Positions 3,001 through 31,728 of a stretch of 64,000 bases of DNA are shown here, piece by piece. The DNA is from Spirochaetota bacterium. Lineage in GTDB: Bacteria; Spirochaetota; Spirochaetia; Treponematales; UBA12059. The translations under genes were made by a program, and so were the position numbers. A model generated the notes under the pieces. The model made no database searches. It worked only from the letters and a program-made list of their open reading frames with translations, and had not been told where the DNA came from. The DNA lies in contig JADFDI010000001.1 of assembly GCA_018262985.1 (NCBI GenBank), positions 592,664 through 656,663 of the forward strand. Reading direction: 5' to 3'. Within the stretch, counting starts at the first letter, position 1. Every line of letters begins with the position of its first letter.

Positions 3001-3978
3001 GGCGGCGAGAACGTCCATCGCCTCACCGACGTGTTGGTTTCCATCCGGCCCGCGACGGCAGCCGACGCCACCTACTTCGCCTGGCCCACCTGGGCCAAGG
3101 ACTCGGCCTACTTCCCCGGCGCGGATTCGAGCGAGCCGGAACTCCTCGACCTCGCGGTGCCGGATTCGGCGGCCTCCGACGCGTCCACCGCGAGCACGGT
3201 GGGACTCGTGCGCCGCTTCGACGGCTCGCAGTGGCTGCGCGACGAAGACTTCGACGTGCGCGTCCGGGTCAACCCCGCGCTATCGCCGGCCGATCTTTCC
3301 CTCGTCTACGATACCGACGTGCCTCCGGCCCTGCGCTCCGGACTCTCCGCCGCCGGCCTCTGGCTGCCCGCTTTCGCCGAAACCGCGTTCTCGGGCCTCG
3401 TGCCCTATCCGAACGTTCCCGGAACCGCGGGCGACCTGAACGCGCTCTCGGGCGTCGCCGACGCCACGCCGGGCTTCTGGAATTTCGCCGTCGACTCGTC
3501 CGATCCGGAGCTCCGAGATCGCGCGACCTTCGACTTCTTCCTGCACCTCGACGCGCCCGGCTCCATACCCGCGACGGATCCGCTCTACGTCGCGCGGCTC
3601 GACATCGCGCCGGGCGCCCCGGTGCCGACGGACTGGTATCGCCTCGTCCGGCCCTTCTCCCTGCGCATCCGCGACATCGAACCGCAGAAGGGCGGCGTCA
3701 CGATCATGAACAACGTCATCGACCCCGGGAAGGGCGAGACGGCGCGGCTCAACTATCGGCTCGCGGAAGCGGGCAGGGTGACGGTGCTGGTGCTCACGCT
3801 CGACGGCGACGTGGTGCGCGCCCTCTACCGCGGCACGCGCGCGGCGGGCGACTACACGGACGTCTGGGACGGCCGCAACGCCGCCGGAAATCCGGTCGCG
3901 CGCGGCGCCTACTTCATCCGCGTCGTCGGCCCCGGCGTCGACGAGATCCGCAAGGTCCTCGTGGTGAAGAACCCTTAG
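1..3978 (+). CDS. Large repeat-rich surface/adhesin-like protein, 5'-truncated by window
   Basis: The reading frame is already open at base 1, so the true start lies upstream; 1325 residues are visible. The first ~430 residues are low-complexity Thr/Ala/Gly/Ser beta-repeat sequence of the filamentous-haemagglutinin/autotransporter-passenger type. They contain an 85-residue segment (bases 427-681) repeated nearly exactly at 922-1176, a period of 165 residues. The middle part has more ordinary composition with many aromatic residues. The last ~80 residues resemble a FlgD-type Ig-like domain (R-V-T-V-L-V-L-T-L-D-G-D-V-V-R..., then W-D-G-R-N-A-A-G-N-P-V-A-R-G-A-Y), often found at the C-terminus of secreted and cell-surface proteins. 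Inferred role: exported surface structure or adhesin. There is no beta-barrel at the C-terminus, so a classical type V autotransporter is unlikely. The gene ends at a hairpin repeat. Confidence 0.75.
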   Translation, partial: ALTVGGTTAVTNAGLFTTSATAPIVSGGAFTQDGAGANSLGADVTISGADLSFLRAITLTENVQLSSGAGAGNIALSSTVNAETAASGESLTLVAGLGNIVVTGPVGTGVANRIGALTVTSAVDATFSGAVYAAGFAQAAGTGTTTLNGAVNTSAAAGVTLTGTNLVLNAGITTAASGVVTLNHSGTTTIAAAGDINADGAVSLAATGGITTAGDVTTTADAIGFNSPTTLSGSIALASAGGNVTFASTLSGTTDGAENLRIAAGAGNVSFGGAVGATRLGVVDVDSAANVTSIGLTAAALNQDSGSGTTTLNGAVNTSAAAGVTLTGTNLVLNAPVTTAASGVVTLNHSGTTTIAAAGDINADGAVSIAATGGISTAGDVTTTADAIGFNSATTFTDAAALSSTGGAIDFAGAVSVNANLSVDAGTALAAFASILTIADAVALDFGATRFSVATLDMAGAASRVRLSGEANQAGSTIATFDAARGVFEYYGPGGTVWTSGWNPSGTHYFDLELNGDPGSSFAFEGAATLAGSLTLDEGTLELGGGTDIGGDIRIRDGSSLDVTASNHALVVRGANWVNAVGPAGFVARNGTVRFDPASMTVDIYGNNDWWIFWVEGSGLTVRFQNGTMTAPSGELIAGDVITQRVISGGLFRILGTVGNPDDVVLTRIDATKGEPTLPSPIVPGDDRKFWFFDLVPGASLDMAFATVRYSNARSNPVSVPPDVVASYAGTFSFKWLSQWFSLYGYTEDFDYDGKLDRLRVTAEGAVGNDFTGFAVEVRNESSGEAYTVAGFERPVPGANFYILLEEKPYLDSGATIVWRVVSNTTLYDGTAGDKKVGNLASSNLALAAPAGSDPDLGDWMRAGDTAWPVIGYALGLPALDGTFVHFSEDLGGLSQADFTGATSFAMISGGPGTREALVGLGARSVAQLLASPTFTVTPTIADLGTPPYYEASYAGQVAGMPYPTYPFVGGVPGYVADPNGYDAGTDYFGADRPAFELGRGGENVHRLTDVLVSIRPATAADATYFAWPTWAKDSAYFPGADSSEPELLDLAVPDSAASDASTASTVGLVRRFDGSQWLRDEDFDVRVRVNPALSPADLSLVYDTDVPPALRSGLSAAGLWLPAFAETAFSGLVPYPNVPGTAGDLNALSGVADATPGFWNFAVDSSDPELRDRATFDFFLHLDAPGSIPATDPLYVARLDIAPGAPVPTDWYRLVRPFSLRIRDIEPQKGGVTIMNNVIDPGKGETARLNYRLAEAGRVTVLVLTLDGDVVRALYRGTRAAGDYTDVWDGRNAAGNPVARGAYFIRVVGPGVDEIRKVLVVKNP
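427..1176 (+). repeat. In-frame direct repeat, two 255-bp copies (427-681 and 922-1176)
   Basis: Both copies encode the same 85-residue unit running from G-T-T-T-L-N-G-A-V to I-G-F-N-S, with about a dozen base differences, several of them silent. The 495-bp spacing is a multiple of three. This is an internal protein repeat and not an intergenic element. It is likely to expand and contract by slippage or recombination. Confidence 0.9.
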
Positions 3979-3984
3979 GAGGAA

Positions 3985-4093
3985 CCGAACGCCGAGGCGC
4001 CGAGGAAGACGATCGAGGAAATGGCATGGAGGGAGGACCATGATGGGTTCTCCTTCCATGCCCCTCGGCTCGTCCGGCGCCTCGGCGCTTCCT
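3985..4093. repeat. Hairpin repeat family 2, copy A
   Basis: Terminal arms share GCCGAGGCGCCG in inverted orientation (left arm near 3991, right arm near 4076-4087). Inside them lies a second hairpin, GGCATGGAGGGAG against CTCCTTCCATGCC. The element begins within 10 bases of the preceding stop codon, and its right arm reaches the 3' end of the convergent DUF362 gene. Other copies are near 24.33, 38.13, 39.68 and 42.89 kb. It could double as a bidirectional terminator, though no T-run is seen. Confidence 0.65.
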
Positions 4094-4097
4094 TCGC

Positions 4098-5225
4098 TTA
4101 CAAGCCCTTCAACTCGTAGGCGCGGGAGCCGAGGCCGATCCGTTCACCGTGCTCGAGCTGGAGAGCGCCGCGGCTTTCGGGGTGCAGGGCCGCGAACTTG
4201 TCGTCGCCTTCGCCAGCCTTCCCCTCCAGCGCCGAGCCGCGCGCAGCGGGCGCCGCTCGCACCAGGTCCACGCTCGCCGCGTCGATCGCCACCGGGTCGG
4301 TCGAGGCCAGGATGCCCTGGTCGCCCACCACGGGCGCGTCGCTCCAGGGCGTGCAGTCGCAGTCGGGAATCACGTCGGTCACGAAGTTGAGGAAGAGCGT
4401 CTTGCCCTTTTTCCCGTGCAGGGCAGCGAGCGCGTACTCGGTCATCTTCTCGGTGAACTCCGGGATGTCCGCGTTCCAGTCCATGCCGATGGCGTCGAAC
4501 TTGCAGTGCAAAAGGCATTCGCCGCAGCCGATGCACTTCGCCTTGTCCACGAGCGCCTTCGCCTTCCGGTCGGACGGATTCCCGCCCTCGCGGCCGAGCG
4601 CGCCCGTCGGGCACCACTCGATGCACGCGCCGCAGGCGGTGCACTCCGCGCTCCGCACCTCGAACTTCATGCAGTGCTGCTCGCGCTTGCCCGCGGGCGG
4701 GGCGCAGCCCATGGCGATATTCTTGATGGCGCCGCCGAAGCCCGCCATGCCGTGGCCCTTCACGTGGCTGACCACGACCATCGCGTCCGCGTCGAGGAAG
4801 CCGCCCGCCACCTTCGCTTCCTTGAACCACTTCCCGTCCACCGGCACCGCGCGCCAATCCGAGCCCTTGAGCCCGTCCGCGATCAGCACCGGGGCGCCGA
4901 GCACCTCGGGCACGAAGCCGTGGCGCGCCGCGCTTTCGAGGTGCGCCTGCGCGTCCGAGCGCCCGCCCTTGTAGAGCGTGTTCGTGTCGGCGAAGAAGGG
5001 CCTGCCGCCCGCCTCGCGCACCTTGTCGGCCACGACGCGCGCGAACCACGGCGCGACGAAGGTGTGGTTCCCCGGCTCGCCGAAATGCACCTTGATGGCC
5101 ACGAGGTCGCCCTTCGCGACCACCGCGGAAAGGCCAGCCGCGTCGCAGAGGCGCGCGATCTTGGCCTCGGTGTTGGTCCGCGTCGAGCGGGAACGCAGGT
5201 CGGCGAAATGGACGGGAACGGGCAT
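4098..5225 (-). CDS. DUF362 domain protein with two 4Fe-4S clusters
   Basis: 375 residues. The N-terminal DUF362 region is followed by two ferredoxin-type cluster motifs, C-T-A-C-G-A-C-I-E-W-C-P and C-I-G-C-G-E-C-L-L-H-C, which resemble a 2[4Fe-4S] ferredoxin. Family members are cytoplasmic iron-sulphur proteins of unknown reaction, sometimes annotated as Fe-S centre proteins. The start was set at the ATG opening M-P-V-P-V-H-F, because GAGGAGA lies just upstream; a further 50 in-frame residues upstream are Arg/Pro-rich and look non-coding. The gene is monocistronic and faces away from glgA across an 800-bp gap holding two copies of the structured repeat. Family call is firm; function is unknown. 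Confidence 0.85.
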   Translation of the reverse strand: MPVPVHFADLRSRSTRTNTEAKIARLCDAAGLSAVVAKGDLVAIKVHFGEPGNHTFVAPWFARVVADKVREAGGRPFFADTNTLYKGGRSDAQAHLESAARHGFVPEVLGAPVLIADGLKGSDWRAVPVDGKWFKEAKVAGGFLDADAMVVVSHVKGHGMAGFGGAIKNIAMGCAPPAGKREQHCMKFEVRSAECTACGACIEWCPTGALGREGGNPSDRKAKALVDKAKCIGCGECLLHCKFDAIGMDWNADIPEFTEKMTEYALAALHGKKGKTLFLNFVTDVIPDCDCTPWSDAPVVGDQGILASTDPVAIDAASVDLVRAAPAARGSALEGKAGEGDDKFAALHPESRGALQLEHGERIGLGSRAYELKGL

Positions 5226-5410: not shown

Positions 5411-5591
5411 AGCCGGCGAGGTGCGTCAGCGGGACTATTCAGGGCGGGTCCTGACGAGCGAAAGCACAGGCCGACCCGCTTCGGGGTCGGTCCGCGCTTT
5501 CGCTCGTCACCCGCCGTCCTGACGGGTTCCGCGAGGCGCTGCGCCGGGTTTGCCCAAGCACGCCGGCCCGCCTGAGTTTTGGCGGGGCCGG
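5411..5591 (-). repeat. Structured repeat family 1, copy 1
   Basis: The core hairpin at 5453-5508 has a perfect 13-bp outer stem (GACGAGCGAAAGC with GCTTTCGCTCGTC) and an inner stem closed by CCGACCC/GGGTCGG. Flanks match the other copies: GGTTTGC at one side, and at the other GCCGGCGAGGTGCGTCAG, related to GCGGCGAAGGGCGTCATCAG in copies 2 and 3. An extra hairpin at 5563-5591 has GGCCCGCC/GGCGGGGCC arms. Strand is given for the orientation in which G-U pairs strengthen the stem. Also seen in this gene-free stretch is a separate 8-bp palindrome pair, GGCGCCGC/GCGGCGCC, at 5365-5389. Confidence 0.75.
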
Positions 5592-5707: not shown

Positions 5708-5925
5708 GCGGCGTGCGGTTGACCCGAACCCGACGGGCCGATCCGCGAGGCGACCGGCGCGGTGGGTGGTGGCGAAAAACGGACCCTCGAGCGCGAGCGA
5801 GAGGGCCTGTTCTTTCGCCGTCAGGCCCCGCGCAGTGAGGTTCGTGGCCCGGTCCCCCGCCGTTTCTCGGAATTGGCCGCTCCCCGCAGGCGGTCCTGAT
5901 AACGCCCTTCGCCGCGCTGGGGGGC
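5708..5925 (+). repeat. Structured repeat family 1, copy 5 (divergent, with insertion)
   Basis: The core at 5771-5819 pairs GGCGAAA with TTTCGCC. It holds the conserved inner motif GGACC...GAGCGCGAGCGA...GGCCTGT, then GTCAGGCCCCG as in copies 2 and 3. The conserved tail CTGATAACGCCCTTCGCCGC appears at about 5897, some 50 bases further away than expected, so this copy carries an insertion or has decayed. It lies opposite in orientation to copy 1 in the same intergenic gap. Confidence 0.65.
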
Positions 5926-7514: not shown

Positions 7515-8986
7515 TGGGCGGAACGGATACCAAGGTCTACGATTACAAAGCCGAGGCGGTGCGCGAAAAGCTCGTCCGGGCTTTCCGGGAATCGCGGGGC
7601 GAGGCGACGGGAGCCGACCTCGTGGCGCGCACGGGCCTGCCGGTCCACCAGGTGGAGACCGAGCTCCGGGCGGTGGCCGACGAGTACGGGGCGCGCGTGC
7701 GCGTCACCGAGTCGGGCGAGCCGCTCTGGTCCTTCCCGCGGGGCTTCCACAGCCGCTACCGGGGCTTCGGCCCCGCCTTCCGCAAGGGGCTCCGGACCTT
7801 CCGGAAGGGCGCGGCCGCCGTCGGGAAATTCCTCTTCAAGATCTGGATCGTCGTCATGCTCGTGGGCTACTTCGCCCTCTTCGTGGCGCTGGCGGTCCTG
7901 GCCCTGGTCGCCAGTTTCGCGGCCAGCTCCTCCGGGCGCGGCGACGACCGCCGTTCGAGCCGGGGGCGGGGCGGGATAGGCGGCGCCTACATGCTGACGC
8001 GCGTCATCGAGCTCGTCGTGCGCATCTGGTTCTACTCCGAATTCACGAAGTCCTCGCGCGACCCGTTCCGCGCCGCCGAGCGGCGTCGTGCGAAGAAGCC
8101 GCTCCACACGGCCATCTTCAGCTTCGTGTTCGGCGACCCGGATCCGGCCGCTTCCCGCGCCGAGGACGTGCGCTCGGCCTTCGCCGCCTATGTCCGCTCC
8201 CGGAAGGGCATGGCCACGGTCGAGGAGCTCTCGGCCCTCGCGGGCCTGACGCCGGCCGAGGCGGACGACGCCATGAACTCTCTCGCCTACGAGCTCGGCG
8301 GCAGCCCCGAGGTCTCGGACGAGGGCACCGTCTACTGGAAATTCGACGACCTGATGCGGAGCGCGGGCGGGGAGCGCGGCGTCGCCGACCCGGGCCCCCT
8401 GCCGCTCCGCCGCTTCTCCGCCAACCCTTCCTCGGCCAACGCCTGGTTCTGCGCCTTCAACGGCGTCAACCTGGCCTTCGGCGGCTACTTCCTGTTCTCC
8501 GTCCTCTCGGGCGCGCCGCTCGGAAATCCCGAGACGGGGTACACTTTCTACGGCTTCGTGACCGAGTTGGTCAGGAGCGTCGGGCTCGATCCGCAAGCGG
8601 CGATCGGCGTCGGCCTCGGCGTCGTGCCGGTGGTTTTCGCCATCCTCTTCTGGCTGGTGCCGGCCCTGCGCTTCCTCGCGCTCAAGGCCGACAACGCGCG
8701 GCGCGCCCGCGCCAACCTGCGCCGCCGCGCCGCCCGCGCCGTGCTCTCGTCCCCCGACCGGGTCGACCCTTCGGCCATCGCGGCGCGAGCGCCCGAGGAG
8801 GACGGCGACCCGGCGGCGCTCGTCGAGGAGCTCGCGGTCGCCTGGCAGGGCGAGCCGGAAGCCGATGGAACCTGGCGCTTCCCGGAGACCGCGCGACGCC
8901 TCCGCGACCTTTCGCTCGTCCGCTCGCGCGTGGACGAGTCGAAATGGGCGCTCGGCGGACAGGTCTTCGACACCGACGCGCCGTGA
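7514..8986 (+). CDS. Unknown membrane protein with winged-helix-like regions
   Basis: 490 residues, not recognised. The N-terminal ~75 residues (A-V-R-E-K-L-V-R-A-F, A-D-L-V-A-R-T-G-L-P-V) look like a winged-helix/DprA-like fold. Next come a strongly hydrophobic segment near residues 115-140, a Ser/Arg/Gly-rich linker, a second winged-helix-like region near 225-275 (V-E-E-L-S-A-L-A-G-L-T-P-A-E-A-D-D), and two more membrane segments near 320 and 370. A basic tail follows. The start codon overlaps the glgA stop (TGATG), implying translational coupling. The mix of paired helix-turn-helix-like modules with membrane segments suggests an integral membrane regulator or scaffold; this is inference. 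Confidence 0.7.
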   Translation: MGGTDTKVYDYKAEAVREKLVRAFRESRGEATGADLVARTGLPVHQVETELRAVADEYGARVRVTESGEPLWSFPRGFHSRYRGFGPAFRKGLRTFRKGAAAVGKFLFKIWIVVMLVGYFALFVALAVLALVASFAASSSGRGDDRRSSRGRGGIGGAYMLTRVIELVVRIWFYSEFTKSSRDPFRAAERRRAKKPLHTAIFSFVFGDPDPAASRAEDVRSAFAAYVRSRKGMATVEELSALAGLTPAEADDAMNSLAYELGGSPEVSDEGTVYWKFDDLMRSAGGERGVADPGPLPLRRFSANPSSANAWFCAFNGVNLAFGGYFLFSVLSGAPLGNPETGYTFYGFVTELVRSVGLDPQAAIGVGLGVVPVVFAILFWLVPALRFLALKADNARRARANLRRRAARAVLSSPDRVDPSAIAARAPEEDGDPAALVEELAVAWQGEPEADGTWRFPETARRLRDLSLVRSRVDESKWALGGQVFDTDAP

Positions 8987-9981
8987 GGCCGGACCTGGAC
9001 GCCGCGGCGGCCGCGGAGACGGAGGGCGACGCTCGGACGGCGCTCGTGCCGGGGCGCCCTCCGCACTCGTCGACAGCGGAACCCGGGAAGGGCTCCCGGG
9101 GCGCCGCGCCCGAGCGCGCGGCCGGCTTCATTTTCGCCCTCGTCTCGGCGCTGGGCTTTTCCGCCCTCGGCATCCTGGCGCGCGTAGTGTACGCGGAGGG
9201 GCTCGAACCGTTCCAGGCGCTGGCCTGGCGCTTCCTCGTCGCGGGGACCTCGCTCTGGGTCTGGGTGCTGATCACCGGCCGCGCGCGGGGACTCGGCGGA
9301 AGGCGGCTCGGCAAGCTCGTGCTGCTCGGGTTCGGCTTCGCCCTGCAGGCGGGGCTCTTCTTCTTCGCGGTGGAGGCGGTGGGACCGGCGGCCGCCTCGC
9401 TCCTCCTCTACCTCTACCCGGGCTTCGTGCTCGTCATCGCCGCGTTCGCCTTCCGCCGCAGGCCCACGCTCGCCCAAATCGCCAGCTTCGCGCTTTCCCT
9501 CGCGGGCTGCGCCCTGGCCTTCCTCAGGCCCGGCGCCTGGCCCGCGGGCGGCGTCGCGCTCGGGCTCGTCGTGGCGCTCACCTACGCGGCCTATCTCGCG
9601 GCGGGAGAAAAGGCGCTTCGGGGCGAGGACCCGATAGTCGCCACCGCCGTCCTGATGGCCGTGGCCGCGGCGACCTTCACAACCCTCTCGCTCGCCTCAG
9701 GCGGCCTGCCGCTCCCGAGTCCGAAAGCGGCGCTCGGCCTCGTCGGCATAGCCTTCGTCGCGACCTTGTTGCCGATCACGACCCTGTTCGCCTCGATACG
9801 CCGCATCGGCGCGAGCGACGCGAGCCTCGTCTCCACCGCCGAGCTGCCCGCGACCCTGCTGCTCGCCGCGCTCGCCCTCGGCGAGACCCTCGACGCCCGC
9901 GCGCTCGCCGGCGCCGCCCTCGTGACCGCCGGCGTCGTGCTCATCCACGTCGCCGAGCGACGCAATCCCTCGGAAGCCTGA
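8983..9981 (+). CDS. EamA/DMT-family transporter
   Basis: 332 residues with about ten hydrophobic segments in two homologous halves, as in the drug/metabolite transporter superfamily (EamA domains). Examples are G-F-I-F-A-L-V-S-A-L-G-F-S-A-L-G-I-L-A-R early and L-P-A-T-L-L-L-A-A-L-A-L-G-E-T-L-D-A in the second half. Substrate cannot be told from sequence. The start is placed at GTG, whose last two bases overlap the previous stop (GTGA). The first ~45 residues are an unusual non-membrane Ala/Glu-rich extension, so a later start is possible. Third gene of the glgA run. Confidence 0.85.
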   Translation: MRPDLDAAAAAETEGDARTALVPGRPPHSSTAEPGKGSRGAAPERAAGFIFALVSALGFSALGILARVVYAEGLEPFQALAWRFLVAGTSLWVWVLITGRARGLGGRRLGKLVLLGFGFALQAGLFFFAVEAVGPAAASLLLYLYPGFVLVIAAFAFRRRPTLAQIASFALSLAGCALAFLRPGAWPAGGVALGLVVALTYAAYLAAGEKALRGEDPIVATAVLMAVAAATFTTLSLASGGLPLPSPKAALGLVGIAFVATLLPITTLFASIRRIGASDASLVSTAELPATLLLAALALGETLDARALAGAALVTAGVVLIHVAERRNPSEA

Positions 9982-10032
9982 ACCCCGCCCGCGAAGCGCG
10001 CGACGCCCTCGAGGCAGTCGACGGAGCAGGCG

Positions 10033-10360
10033 GCGCGCGACCGCTTGCAGCGGTCACGGCGCCGAAGCCGCGGAACGGCTTCGGCGATCTCCGCCAGGCC
10101 CCGTCCCGTGGCGCGCACCGCCCCCGCCAAAAGCCTCGCCACGCCCGCGGAGCCCCTTCCGGAGAAAGCGGCGTGAAAGCGCAAACCCGACGAAGCGCCA
10201 CGCGCGGATAAGCAGGACGGCGGGTGACGCGCGAAAACGCGGACCGGCGAGCGATAGCGAGCCGGCCTGTGTTTTCGCGCGTCAGGCCCCGCCCTGTAAT
10301 TCCCTGATGACGCCCTTCGCCGCCTTTCCGGACTTGCCCGCCGCCTATTACGCCAGCGCC
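10033..10360 (+). repeat. Structured repeat family 1, copy 2
   Basis: Full-length copy that fills the gap between the EamA gene and the end of the hybrid kinase. From the left: side hairpin P1 (GACCGCT/AGCGGTC), side hairpin P2 (CGAAGCC/GGCTTCG), a linker, GCGCAAACCCGACGAAG, then the core hairpin with perfect 13-bp stem GACGCGCGAAAAC/GTTTTCGCGCGTC and the conserved loop GAGCGATAGCGAG. It ends with CTGATGACGCCCTTCGCCGC and runs into the last codons of the opposite-strand gene. Bases 10201-10360 match 12979-13138 with one difference. Confidence 0.85.
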
Positions 10361-12261
10361 AGGCGCACGCGCTCCATGAGGAATTCATGGCTGTACGGCT
10401 TGCTGATGAACTCGTCGAAGCCCGCGTTCATGCACGCCGCGCGGTCCTCCGCCGTGGAGTGGCCGGTGAGCGCGAAAGCCTTCACGCGGCCGTCGGCGCC
10501 GGCCTCCAGCGAGCGGATGGTCTTGAGCACGTCGATGCCGGTATGGAAGGGCATGGCGATGTCGAGGATGGCCAGGTCGTAGCGCTCGCGTCCGGCCAGG
10601 TCGATCGCCTCGGCTCCGTCGGCGGCCGCGAGGACCGTGTACCCGGCCTTGCGAAGGAGGAAATCCAGGGTCAGGCGGTTGATGGCGTCGTCCTCCGCGA
10701 TCAACACGGTCCGGTTCGGAGGGAAGGACGGCGACGGAACGGACCCAGGATACCCGGCCGCCCCGTCCTCCCGACCGGGCGGACCCGGCTCGCGGGCGGC
10801 GGATACCCCGCCGGGCTCTTCGCCCCTTTCATGGCCGATCGCGACCGGAATTTCGAAGCCGACCTCGGTGCCTTCGCCCGGTTTGCTGTCGATGGCGACG
10901 GTTCCGCCCAGCGCGGCCACGATGCGCCGGACCGTCCAGAGTCCGAGTCCGAGTCCGCGGTGGCGCTTCGTGTGGCTCGCCTCGGCCTGGAAAAAGCGCT
11001 CGCCGCTCCGTTCGAGCGTCCCGTCATCCATCCCGATGCCCGTGTCCTTCACCGAACCGAGGAGCTTTCCTTCCTCGGCCCGGAGCTCGAGGCTGATCGA
11101 GCCCGAGTCGGTGAACTTGATGGCGTTCGAGAGCAAGGCCTCCAGGACCACGACCAGCGCGCGGGGTCGGAGCTCGAGCTCCTTCCCGGCGATCAGATCC
11201 ACGAGGACGAAGTCCAGGCCCTTGGCCTCGGCCTTGGACCGGTAGCGGGCGATGACGCGGCCGAGCAGCGGACCGAGGGTCGTCCATACCGTTCCTTCGC
11301 TCGCGCCCGGATCCTCGTCCTGCGAAACGAGTACCAGGTCCACGAGCTCCGAGAGATCCTCCGCGGCCGTGAGCAGGTCGCGCGCGCTTTCCCGGGCCGA
11401 TTCGGGGAGTTCCGAGTCAGCGAGCATCCTCGCGATCCCGAGCATGCCCGAGACGGGCGTCCTGAGTTCGTGGCTTGTGTTCGCGAGGAACTCGCGCTCG
11501 CGGACCAGCTGACGCTCGGCCGCGTCCTTGGCGGCTCGGAGCGAGGCTTCGCGCAGGCGCGTCGCTTTCCTCGCCATCCCGAGCACCGCGATCCCCCCGG
11601 TCGAAATGAGGGCGAATGAGGCCATGGCGAGGAGCGAGAGTCGCCCCGAGGCCTCGAGCGAATCGCGGAGCGCCACGAACGCGAGCGCTTCCGCGTAACG
11701 GAGCCGGTCGTTCATTTCGCGCGCGGCGCGCATCGCCTCGAGCGCGGCCCCGCGGAGCGCCGCGGCTCCTTCGGCGGACAGGACGGCGCCGGATCCGAGC
11801 GCGGCGCCTTCGGCGCGGAGGGCTTCGAGCAGGGCCGGAAGCGGACCTTCGAGGGCAGCGAGCGCTTCGCGGAGCGCCGCGATGGTCTCTGGCCGTTCCG
11901 CGGACAGCACCGACTCGAAATAGGCGAGCTTGATGCCGGCGACGTTGGCGTATTGCGCGGCGATGGACACGCGGTAGGAAGCGAGTCTGGACGGGAGCTC
12001 CGCGCCGGGAATGGCCATGAGATCGTCCGAGGCCATTCCCGCGATGCGCAGGGTCATGTCGTGGAGGTGGAAGGCGGTCTCCATGGCGTGTTCCGAAAAA
12101 AGGGCGAAGCGGCGCCGGAGCTCGGCGCGTTGCCACGCGACCGCCACGATGCCGATCGCCGCCAGTACGACGATGGAGACGAGGATTATCCAGAAGGAGT
12201 CGCTTCGTTCCGCGCGCGCGGAGGAGCCTAGTCGGTAACGTCGATCCGGGTGAGCCACCAT
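10348..12261 (-). CDS. Hybrid sensor histidine kinase/response regulator
   Basis: 637 residues. Two membrane segments (about 22-44 and 208-229) flank a ~160-residue helical extracytoplasmic sensor region. The phosphoacceptor box F-L-A-N-T-S-H-E-L-R-T-P has His264. The HATPase_c domain shows N-A-I-K-F-T, D-T-G-I-G-M and G-L-G-L-W-T-V. A C-terminal receiver has I-A-E-D-D, phosphorylatable Asp567 (A-I-L-D-I-A-M-P) and Lys621. The start is uncertain: the ATG used overlaps the upstream lipoprotein gene by 34 bases and has no close ribosome site. The last codons and stop lie inside the structured repeat. No separate DNA-binding output is seen nearby. Likely senses a signal together with the coupled lipoprotein. 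Confidence 0.85.
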   Translation of the reverse strand: MVAHPDRRYRLGSSARAERSDSFWIILVSIVVLAAIGIVAVAWQRAELRRRFALFSEHAMETAFHLHDMTLRIAGMASDDLMAIPGAELPSRLASYRVSIAAQYANVAGIKLAYFESVLSAERPETIAALREALAALEGPLPALLEALRAEGAALGSGAVLSAEGAAALRGAALEAMRAAREMNDRLRYAEALAFVALRDSLEASGRLSLLAMASFALISTGGIAVLGMARKATRLREASLRAAKDAAERQLVREREFLANTSHELRTPVSGMLGIARMLADSELPESARESARDLLTAAEDLSELVDLVLVSQDEDPGASEGTVWTTLGPLLGRVIARYRSKAEAKGLDFVLVDLIAGKELELRPRALVVVLEALLSNAIKFTDSGSISLELRAEEGKLLGSVKDTGIGMDDGTLERSGERFFQAEASHTKRHRGLGLGLWTVRRIVAALGGTVAIDSKPGEGTEVGFEIPVAIGHERGEEPGGVSAAREPGPPGREDGAAGYPGSVPSPSFPPNRTVLIAEDDAINRLTLDFLLRKAGYTVLAAADGAEAIDLAGRERYDLAILDIAMPFHTGIDVLKTIRSLEAGADGRVKAFALTGHSTAEDRAACMNAGFDEFISKPYSHEFLMERVRLALA

Positions 12262-12794
12262 ACGTAGTTGAGCTTGTGCTCCTCCATGTCGACGCCGGGG
12301 AAGGACTCGTGGGGGAAGGCCACCGTCAGGGGACCCTTGTTGCGCTCGTCGGGGAACTCGTCGTAGCGCTTGCCGTCCTCCTCCCATACGAGCGCGTAGC
12401 CGAGCCGACGGAGCTCCTCGAGCGCGATGACGACGGAATAATCGTTCAACGCGACGAGGCGGACCTTGCGGGCGCGCGCGTCGAGGCCGAGCGCTTCGAG
12501 CAGGGGCGCCAACGCCACCCCGCGATACCGCGCCTTTCCGGGGATCCAAGGATCCTCGCTCGTGAACTCGGTCCGCGGAAGCGCCTCGAGAGCCGCCAGC
12601 GAAAGGAACCCGGGTGCGCCCCCGTTCACGAGGCCGGAGAGCTCGACCACCGTATCGGAACCCCGCTCCGCGGTTATGGGGATCTTGTCGGGCCAGCGTT
12701 CCGAGGCGCCGCCCGGAGCTTTGGCGCACGAGAATCCGGACACCAGCGCCAATAAGGCCAGGAGGGACGGCACGCTCCGATGATGGGCACGCAT
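12228..12794 (-). CDS. Lipoprotein with molybdopterin-oxidoreductase-like fold (no Moco cysteine)
   Basis: 188 residues. A short lipoprotein-type signal (L-L-A-L-L-A-L-V-S-G-F-S-C) precedes a single Oxidored_molyb-like domain: W-I-P-G-K-A-R-Y-R-G-V-A-L-A-P-L-L, V-A-L-N-D-Y-S-V-V-I, and a final W-W-L-T-R-I-D-V. In catalytic family members a conserved Cys binds the molybdenum cofactor; here no Cys remains after the lipobox, so a binding rather than enzymatic role is likely. The start was chosen at M-R-A-H-H-R to give the signal peptide. It overlaps the kinase gene downstream, which suggests a periplasmic sensing partner. The family match is moderate. Confidence 0.7.
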   Translation of the reverse strand: MRAHHRSVPSLLALLALVSGFSCAKAPGGASERWPDKIPITAERGSDTVVELSGLVNGGAPGFLSLAALEALPRTEFTSEDPWIPGKARYRGVALAPLLEALGLDARARKVRLVALNDYSVVIALEELRRLGYALVWEEDGKRYDEFPDERNKGPLTVAFPHESFPGVDMEEHKLNYVWWLTRIDVTD

Positions 12795-12833
12795 GGTTCT
12801 ATGGTCGCGGTCCGAAGGGTTCCAGTCAAGTCG

Positions 12834-13138
12834 CCGCGCGACCGCTTGCGGCGCTCGCGGCGCCGAAGCCGAAGAACGGCTTCGGCGATTTCCTCCGGCC
12901 CTGCCTCCAGGCTGGCACCGCACCATGCAGCAATCGTCGGAGCAGGCGGCGTGAAAGCGCAAACCCGGCGAAGCGCCTCGCGCGGATAAGCAGGACGGCG
13001 GGTGACGCGCGAAAATGCGGACCGGCGAGCGATAGCGAGCCGGCCTGTGTTTTCGCGCGTCAGGCCCCGCCCTGTAATTCCCTGATGACGCCCTTCGCCG
13101 CCTTTCCGGACTTGCCCGCCGCCTATTACGCCAGCGCC
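12834..13138 (+). repeat. Structured repeat family 1, copy 3
   Basis: Same order of parts as copy 2: P1 (GCGACCGC/GCGCTCGC, imperfect), P2 (CGAAGCC/GGCTTCG), AAGCGCAAACCCGGCGAAG, then the core hairpin with loop GAGCGATAGCGAG and the CTGATGACGCCCTTCGCC tail. It ends inside the last codons of the opposite-strand unknown gene. The linker between P2 and the core differs from copy 2 in both length and sequence, in contrast to the nearly identical right-hand 160 bp. Confidence 0.85.
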
Positions 13139-13968
13139 TTCGCGAGCTTCGCGAGCTCCCCGTCGTCGACGTCCAGCGGCACGATCGACGGCTCGTCGAA
13201 ACCGGGGGAAAGCACGGCTCCGCCCGCGAGCGACTTCCGCCTGAAGGCGGCGTAGGCTTCCGGGCTTTCGGCGCGCGCGTAGAGGTAGGGACCGCGCCGC
13301 TCGAAGAAGGGCGCGAGCCGCCGGTCGATCTTGCGGTAGAGCGCGTCGGAGTAATCGCGCGCCATGAGGTCGCGGTCGTCGAGGGCGCGCTGGGAGGGAA
13401 AGGTCGAGACGCCCTCGAGCACCTCCCCTTCGAGACGGGCGGCCAGGGCGGCTTCGCCTCCGCCGCGGCCCGCGCGCACCACGAGGCCCGCGCACCCGAG
13501 GGGGCCGGGCAGGGCGGGGGGGCAGAGCAGCACGGGAGCGGCGGCGAGCGCCATCAGGGCCGCCCCGCCCGCGAAGGGCCTGTCGACCGCGCCCGGCGCG
13601 TCCTGAGGCGGCACCGTGGAACGCAGGGCTGGGTCGAAGAGGCGTTCGCGCCGGATTTCCTCGCCGGCCGCGCGCGACCACGCCGCGAGGGCCATCCCGC
13701 AGTCGCGGAAGAGGAAGGCCTTGGCGCCTTCGCCGCCCTTCTTCGCGAGCGCGCGCTCGAGCCGAGCCTGGTAGGCGTCGGGCGCGCTCTTGAGCAGCGC
13801 GCGGTCGAGGGCGTTCTTGGCCCAGGTGCCGGCCAAGCGGCCCTTGGCGCCGACGAAGCCCGCGCCGTCCAGGAAGCGCAGGTCGAGGAAGCGCTCCCCG
13901 TTCCGCGCGTAGAGCCGCCAGGCGCGCATCCGCCCGATAGGCGGCAATTCCCTCAGCAACTCGTCCAT
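13126..13968 (-). CDS. Unknown protein, 280 residues
   Basis: No family recognised. The protein is Ala/Arg/Leu-rich, without signal peptide or clear membrane helices apart from a hydrophobic stretch near residues 135-160 (A-L-M-A-L-A-A-A-P-V-L-L). The N-terminus (R-A-W-R-L-Y-A-R-N-G-E-R-F-L-D-L-R-F-L-D-G) and C-terminus (G-P-Y-L-Y-A-R-A-E-S-P-E-A-Y) are typical soluble sequence. Its start overlaps the end of pcrA by 16 bases, with AAGGTGGA upstream, so it is probably co-translated with the helicase. Its last three codons and stop are provided by structured repeat copy 3. Confidence 0.65.
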   Translation of the reverse strand: MDELLRELPPIGRMRAWRLYARNGERFLDLRFLDGAGFVGAKGRLAGTWAKNALDRALLKSAPDAYQARLERALAKKGGEGAKAFLFRDCGMALAAWSRAAGEEIRRERLFDPALRSTVPPQDAPGAVDRPFAGGAALMALAAAPVLLCPPALPGPLGCAGLVVRAGRGGGEAALAARLEGEVLEGVSTFPSQRALDDRDLMARDYSDALYRKIDRRLAPFFERRGPYLYARAESPEAYAAFRRKSLAGGAVLSPGFDEPSIVPLDVDDGELAKLAKALA

Positions 13969-31486: not shown

Positions 31487-31728
31487 GCGGCGAAGAACCT
31501 TTATTTTGGCCGGCCAGGGGTGGGCCTGGCACGTGGAAATACATCCCGCTCGCTGGCGCTCGGGGACGTCTTTCCACGTGCCACCCCCCGCGCGGCCGGT
31601 CAGATATGGGTTATTAGCAGGTTTCGGGCCTAGGACGCCGCCTATGTGCGGTTGAGTGGCCTCGGGAGATCGACGAAGCCTTTCCGAGGCTTCGTCGCCG
31701 CGACCGCTTCAAGCGGTCGCGCGCCACC
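31487..31728 (-). repeat. Structured repeat family 1, copy 4 (diverged, stems conserved)
   Basis: Begins just after the dehydrogenase stop with GCGGCGAAGAAC, like the gene-proximal end of copies 2 and 3. The core hairpin at 31528-31582 has GGCACGTGGAAA/TTTCCACGTGCC and loop CGCTCGCTGGCGCTCG, i.e. GAGCGCCAGCGAG on the other strand. P2 (GACGAAGCCT/AGGCTTCGTC, 31672-31696) and P1 (GCGACCGCTT/AAGCGGTCGC, 31700-31720) are perfect here. The remaining gap to 31970 shows no gene I would support. Confidence 0.75.

Follow-up and report, generated by a model that had tools for sequence, protein, structure and literature searches.

Element A, a YPAL/ERIC-like palindromic repeat of spirochaete genomes, as possible portable homology beside genes

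The Yersinia palindromic sequence (YPAL, also RU-2) is an intergenic repeat of ~168 bp with internal inverted repeats, present in tens of copies, and a link to upstream genes has been reported for it (PMC2229807, PMC2267715). For ERIC, a terminal TA is listed (PMC2229807), and the hairpin unit of REP sequences spans 20-40 bp (PMC3733652). Here we describe a repeat, element A, found in a stretch of 64,000 nucleotides (the window) from the 3.44 Mb genome of an uncultured Spirochaetales species, the host, which is assembled in 22 contigs and in which our census of the element is a lower bound. It was compared with two congeners, both Spirochaetales metagenome assemblies, and with relatives in other genera. 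Element A is a dispersed, non-coding, imperfect palindrome that falls in the 100-170 bp range of ERIC/YPAL-like repeats, and its family matched no paper that we found in the open-access literature. On the best reading of the evidence, it is a new palindromic repeat family, similar to YPAL and ERIC, that serves as portable homology.

The two window copies and their surroundings

The first-pass annotation of the window described two 160-bp blocks (10201-10360 and 12979-13138) with a single difference between them, both reaching the last codons and stop of minus-strand genes, and alignment bears this out. The blocks share the end GGCGCTGGCGTAATAG, which reads Ala-Leu-Ala-stop in a gene here called U (13126-13968, minus) and Leu-Ala-Leu-Ala-stop in a hybrid kinase gene (10348-12261, minus). 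Self-comparison of the window gives 98% identity over 201 bp (10160-10360 against 12938-13138), and the two copies differ at three positions over 193 bp (98.4%). Past the far side of each block comes a second module, made up of two small hairpins, whose copies (10028-10100 and 12829-12901) are 85% identical, so that the whole repeated unit measures ~330 bp. The identity had been called local, but the likeness of this pair continues past the block into the second module. Three more copies of the element lie within the window, at 5413-5567, 5708-5843 and 31487-31642. The features are as follows.

10167-10323, minus: element A, copy behind the hybrid kinase gene; nhmmer 125 bits, covariance model 153 bits
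12945-13101, minus: element A, copy behind U; matches the element model, 97.5% identical to the kinase copy
10324-10360, minus: shared tail, last codons and stop of the kinase gene; a tail known only at the two window loci
13102-13138, minus: shared tail, last codons and stop of U; Ala-Lys-Ala-Leu-Ala is native coding sequence
10026-10093, minus: second repeat module, with two small hairpins, next after the kinase copy; from window self-comparison
12827-12894, minus: second repeat module, following the U copy; from window self-comparison
12228-12773, minus: inserted block, gene 1; weak match to a molybdopterin-binding oxidoreductase domain, below the Pfam cut-off
10348-12261, minus: inserted block, gene 2, hybrid histidine kinase; HisKA, HATPase and receiver domains
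13126-13968, minus: U, flanking gene, conserved protein of unknown function; no Pfam match, neighbour of the EamA gene in other genera
8983-9981, plus: EamA-family transporter, flanking gene; convergent with U in other genera
5413-5567, plus: element A, another copy; tail-to-tail with 5708-5843
5708-5843, minus: element A, diverged copy; matches the element model
31487-31642, plus: element A, diverged copy, then second module; matches the element model

Over element A alone, the window pair is 97.5% identical, while the next-best pair within the genome reaches 81.8% and 45 copies average 68% (SD 6%), which rules out chance as the cause of the near-identity. Elsewhere in the window, positions 397-1191 hold a 300-bp direct repeat at 89% identity with 495-bp spacing.

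Structure, spread and gene neighbours of element A

A DNA search returned at least 28 matches in the host genome and strong matches in both congeners, with only traces elsewhere. A covariance model placed element A at at least 45 distinct sites in the host and gave 64, 61 and 47 matches in the three genomes of the genus, some of them double matches to both strands of the palindrome. Outside the genus, it matched 17 times in G004 and seven times in G008, which belong to other genera, and three times in G025, of another family (best match 116 bits). Alignment of 45 copies reveals an imperfect palindrome of ~155 bp with conserved ends, GCGGCG...CGCCGC, and a conserved hairpin base, GGGKCCTG...CACCC, with a three-base bulge on one side. 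The long stem varies in sequence from copy to copy while its pairing is kept. Standard pairs fill 95.9% of 1258 stem pair cells as against 80.7% in shuffles, 157 cells are changed on both sides in a compensatory manner (39 in shuffles), and pairing falls to ~42% once the partner is slid by one base. The copies of element A are thus one structured family.

Element A also forms the core of a larger palindrome of 280-310 bp, with termini GGGGGAGC...GCTCCCCC, in G004, in G025 and in two host copies. Sites of this extended palindrome, spread over three genera, are L018:1454-1734, L136, L193, L194, L200, L190 and L192, and in G004 the likeness extends further rightward. An extra hairpin, CCGCTTTCGG...GCGCGCGACCTCATC, sits at the tip of element A in two copies (L151:3225-3445 and G000 C20:20736-20947); the same tip motif is found behind some RAYT genes too.

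Where do the copies lie relative to genes? We called the gene neighbours of 59 copies from the host and the two congeners with a home-made codon-score script. Element A adjoins genes, most often following a stop codon closely, and its gene-proximal end is the GCGGCG end; between the opposite end and the next gene the distance is much larger (p ~5e-13). At the GCGGCG side the neighbouring gene ends in 36 of the 59 cases and starts in 23, a preference for stops over starts that does not differ significantly from that on the other side (28/55; Fisher p 0.35). Stop codon and element are separated by 3-219 bp (median 24; no more than 70 bp in 33 of the 36), mostly by 3-65 bp at loci other than the two in the window. 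The first-pass annotation had proposed that genes are joined to the repeat at a fixed point. Across copies the distance varies, 23 copies adjoin gene starts, and the Ala-Leu-Ala-stop tail is restricted to the window loci: GGCGTARWAGGCGGCGGGCAAGTCCGGAA, which bears the shared stop codon, occurs only at these two places in each of the three genomes. A fixed gene-repeat junction is therefore rejected. In other genera, U reads ...AKALA and then a few more residues (for example, AKALAKGAGD), which identifies the last residues, AKALA, as U's own coding sequence.

Could element A act at the RNA level, terminating or stabilising transcripts as a 3'-end hairpin that selection maintains at gene ends? 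Such a role would suit the compensatory changes in the arms and the 33 of 59 copies that, read in the sense direction, start no more than 70 bp after a stop codon. However, 23 of the 59 copies lie beside gene starts, and among the changed pairs on the gene strand, A-C mismatches (~21) outnumber G-U pairs (~10), which is not what RNA pairing predicts, although the signal is weak, the copies being related. Upkeep at the level of gene-strand RNA is accordingly not favoured. In an Rfam search, all listed matches, mostly to miRNA or viral hairpins, scored below the gathering score, and element A was rejected as a known RNA family since none of those listed reached the threshold. An RNA role by itself would also leave the exchange described below unexplained, and we judge this explanation decidedly unlikely. 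The hairpin is probably kept intact by the element's own spread or by palindrome repair, rather than as a gene-strand transcript.

A second proposal places element A among the REP/BIME-type repeats and attributes its spread to a RAYT (TnpA-REP) transposase. The element is a hairpin repeat, and a search for the REP-associated transposase envisaged in the first-pass annotation did recover RAYT genes, with six Y1_Tnp genes in the host and three apiece in the congeners. Yet upstream of the RAYT genes that we inspected there are commonly GGGGACAGAGCTC-type repeats, and element A does not flank these genes, except for a single copy that lies roughly 0.5 kb from one gene; moreover, ~155 bp is far from the 20-40 bp of REPs (PMC3733652). 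Because the RAYT genes are accompanied by GGGGACAGAGCTC repeats instead of element A, we rejected spread by RAYT as highly unlikely. At L151:3560-4580 (G000 C1), a gene of unknown family (3824-4540) accompanies an expanded GGGACAGAGCTCGCGC-like array, where a congener (L113:1380-1560) has a single GGGGACAGAGCTC; the repeats of this array also precede several RAYT (Y1_Tnp) genes. The GGGACAGAGCTCGCGC/GGGGACAGAGCTC-type repeats may be the RAYT-linked ones, and they may flank gained genes.

Exchange and gene blocks between direct copies

Why are the two window copies so alike? The first-pass annotation had asked whether strains differ in the gene that follows the repeat. Gene order is identical in three species, the host and its two congeners, where U and the kinase gene each have element A behind them. 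Within the congener genomes the U copy and the kinase copy are 72% and 59.5% identical, compared with 98.4% over 193 bp in the host. The stop-codon tail has changed in concert, reading TAATAG at both ends in the host and TAGAAG at both in the congeners. The spacer behind the host kinase gene is of the U type (84% and 82% to the congener U copies, z ~14), while it scores z -0.6 and 1.3 against that of its own kinase orthologues in the congeners. The spacer behind host U is, in turn, partly of the kinase type (z 6.1 and 4.2). Kinase-type spacer persists behind the second module of the host kinase gene (z ~8), and the tract that moved behind this gene comprises element A, spacer and second module. 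Since spacer types are swapped at both loci, sequence moved both ways. The two window copies exchanged sequence in the host species after its split from its relatives.

Recent movement or gene conversion had both been suggested for the pair; the outlier identity (97.5% against 82%) and the two-way exchange of flanks favour conversion or exchange between homologous sequences, which explains the near-identity. Short-read assembly can collapse short near-identical repeats, and the likeness might then be an assembly artefact of the metagenome bin. This is extremely unlikely, as two further species, assembled separately, have both copies at these two gene ends, and the host copies differ at three positions over 193 bp. 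Nearby inverted copies behave likewise: at one locus, a host copy and a congener copy have a 71-bp tip in common in inverted orientation.

What lies between the copies? U and the EamA gene are direct convergent neighbours in seven relatives drawn from several genera (gap -44 to 52 bp); in four further genomes, other sequence separates the two. In the host genus, a molybdopterin-domain-like gene and the hybrid kinase gene stand between U and EamA, flanked by direct copies of element A. Other genera lack the two-gene block, here bounded by copies in the same orientation, between these two neighbours. In G015, at another site, a homologue of the gene at 12228-12773 forms a pair with a histidine kinase gene, so this kind of gene pair also occurs independently of the window site. 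A similar arrangement is found at HAD/dnaE. The HAD hydrolase gene and dnaE are convergent (gap -4 to 103 bp) in 10 of 12 relatives; the host genus has the order HAD-A-clostripain-like gene-A, with direct copies, and an FAA-hydrolase gene behind dnaE. The other genera lack element A at both HAD/dnaE and U/EamA, and added genes blur the junctions there. A mazEF toxin-antitoxin pair likewise lies between two direct copies. That direct pairs always enclose accessory genes was rejected, one pair on contig C10 enclosing plsY and its upstream gene, not obvious accessory genes. Adjacent pairs of copies less than 4 kb apart number 10 against 2.25 expected, a count reached in none of 5000 simulations, and many copies are solitary. 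A dienelactone-hydrolase-like gene between tail-to-tail copies in the host (L146:3130-4230) is missing from the same place in G001 (L082). An intermediate state, the flanking genes with one element A and no block, was not found among the genomes compared, so the order of insertion events is one that we infer.

Does the gene-A-gene-A order make element A the recombination site of a dispersed cassette system? In an integron-like scheme with a different core, a gene and the element A behind it would move together, a recombinase placing them behind another copy. The order recurs, with the orientation unchanged, at three places (the window locus, HAD/dnaE and mazEF); the arms of the element vary while its ends and bulge are conserved, and two of the three genomes have a gene for a full-length integron integrase. 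Against this, the GTTRRRY/RYYYAAC core is found in 0 of 45 copies, no element A lies on the contig stretches fetched around the integrase gene, the distance to genes is variable, and many copies stand alone. The observed exchange spread through and beyond the element instead of occurring at one point, and a congener retains the mazEF unit at its site (comparison of G000 and G001 showed no insert polymorphism, the pair being present in both). We consider cassette recombination at element A unlikely. Its more specific form, a dispersed spirochaete system in which accessory genes (sensor operons, mazEF, secreted proteases) with their element A were inserted behind a resident copy through attC-like hairpin recognition with a different core, seems quite improbable.

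Of the cassette likeness first drawn for this locus, what stands is a two-gene block inserted relative to other genera and the repetition of the pattern at HAD/dnaE; the defining integron features, the core and the integrase neighbourhood, are missing. The search for a recombinase did find the integron integrase (G000 C13 and G001 C27), with no element A on the contig stretches fetched there. With the core motif absent from 45 of 45 copies and no element A on those stretches around the integrase gene, identity with integron attC was rejected. Short matches of a junction query beside the integrase gene were rejected as element A, as the element model finds nothing there. The integrase has an N-terminal extension (L159:6926-8239, G000 C13; G001 C27), and there is no recognisable cassette array on the fetched stretches.

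Homologous recombination between copies is the simplest account. We give a probability of about two in three to element A being a dispersed non-coding palindrome akin to ERIC and YPAL whose copies recombine and have acted as portable homology for the entry of the block. The exchange between the window copies would be ordinary RecA-type recombination of direct repeats, whose conversion tracts presumably stop where homology ceases, just within the end of each reading frame. Between repeats of this sort, exchange and conversion could take place, and DNA entering the cell with a copy of its own could integrate at a resident one; the block most likely entered in this way, by recombination between a resident element A and a copy on incoming DNA. 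The family presents intergenic hairpin repeats that convert each other and also bracket blocks gained between core genes that otherwise lie side by side. Whether repeats of this kind only spread, or offer landing sites to new genes, becomes testable with element A, and its covarying arms, sampled across genera, provide a data set for separating DNA-level from RNA-level upkeep of the palindrome.

Comparison with known repeats and recombination sites

Like integron attC sites, element A is a hairpin with variable stems, a conserved bulge and conserved polarity, placed behind genes, and at some loci the order gene-site-gene-site resembles that of integron cassettes. Unlike attC, it has no GTTRRRY core (45 of 45 copies), lies away from the integrase gene, is dispersed and keeps a variable distance to genes. 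With REP/BIME it shares the character of a high-copy extragenic palindrome, some copies being tail to tail, but it is far longer and the RAYT genes here are associated with another repeat.

The likeness to ERIC/IRU (127 bp) and to MITE-like repeats lies in a dispersed, non-coding, intergenic imperfect palindrome. Some copies of ERIC carry insertions at the hairpin tip, as do copies 20 and 21 of element A. The extended element ends in GGGGGAGC...GCTCCCCC, however, without the terminal TA of ERIC. Target-site duplications are known for YPAL. Element A is similar to YPAL in length and is, like it, an imperfect palindrome with internal inverted repeats, not A+T-rich, intergenic and present in tens of copies. 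It differs from YPAL in belonging to a different phylum and in having arms that are rewritten between copies; the likeness is one of length, form, setting and copy number.
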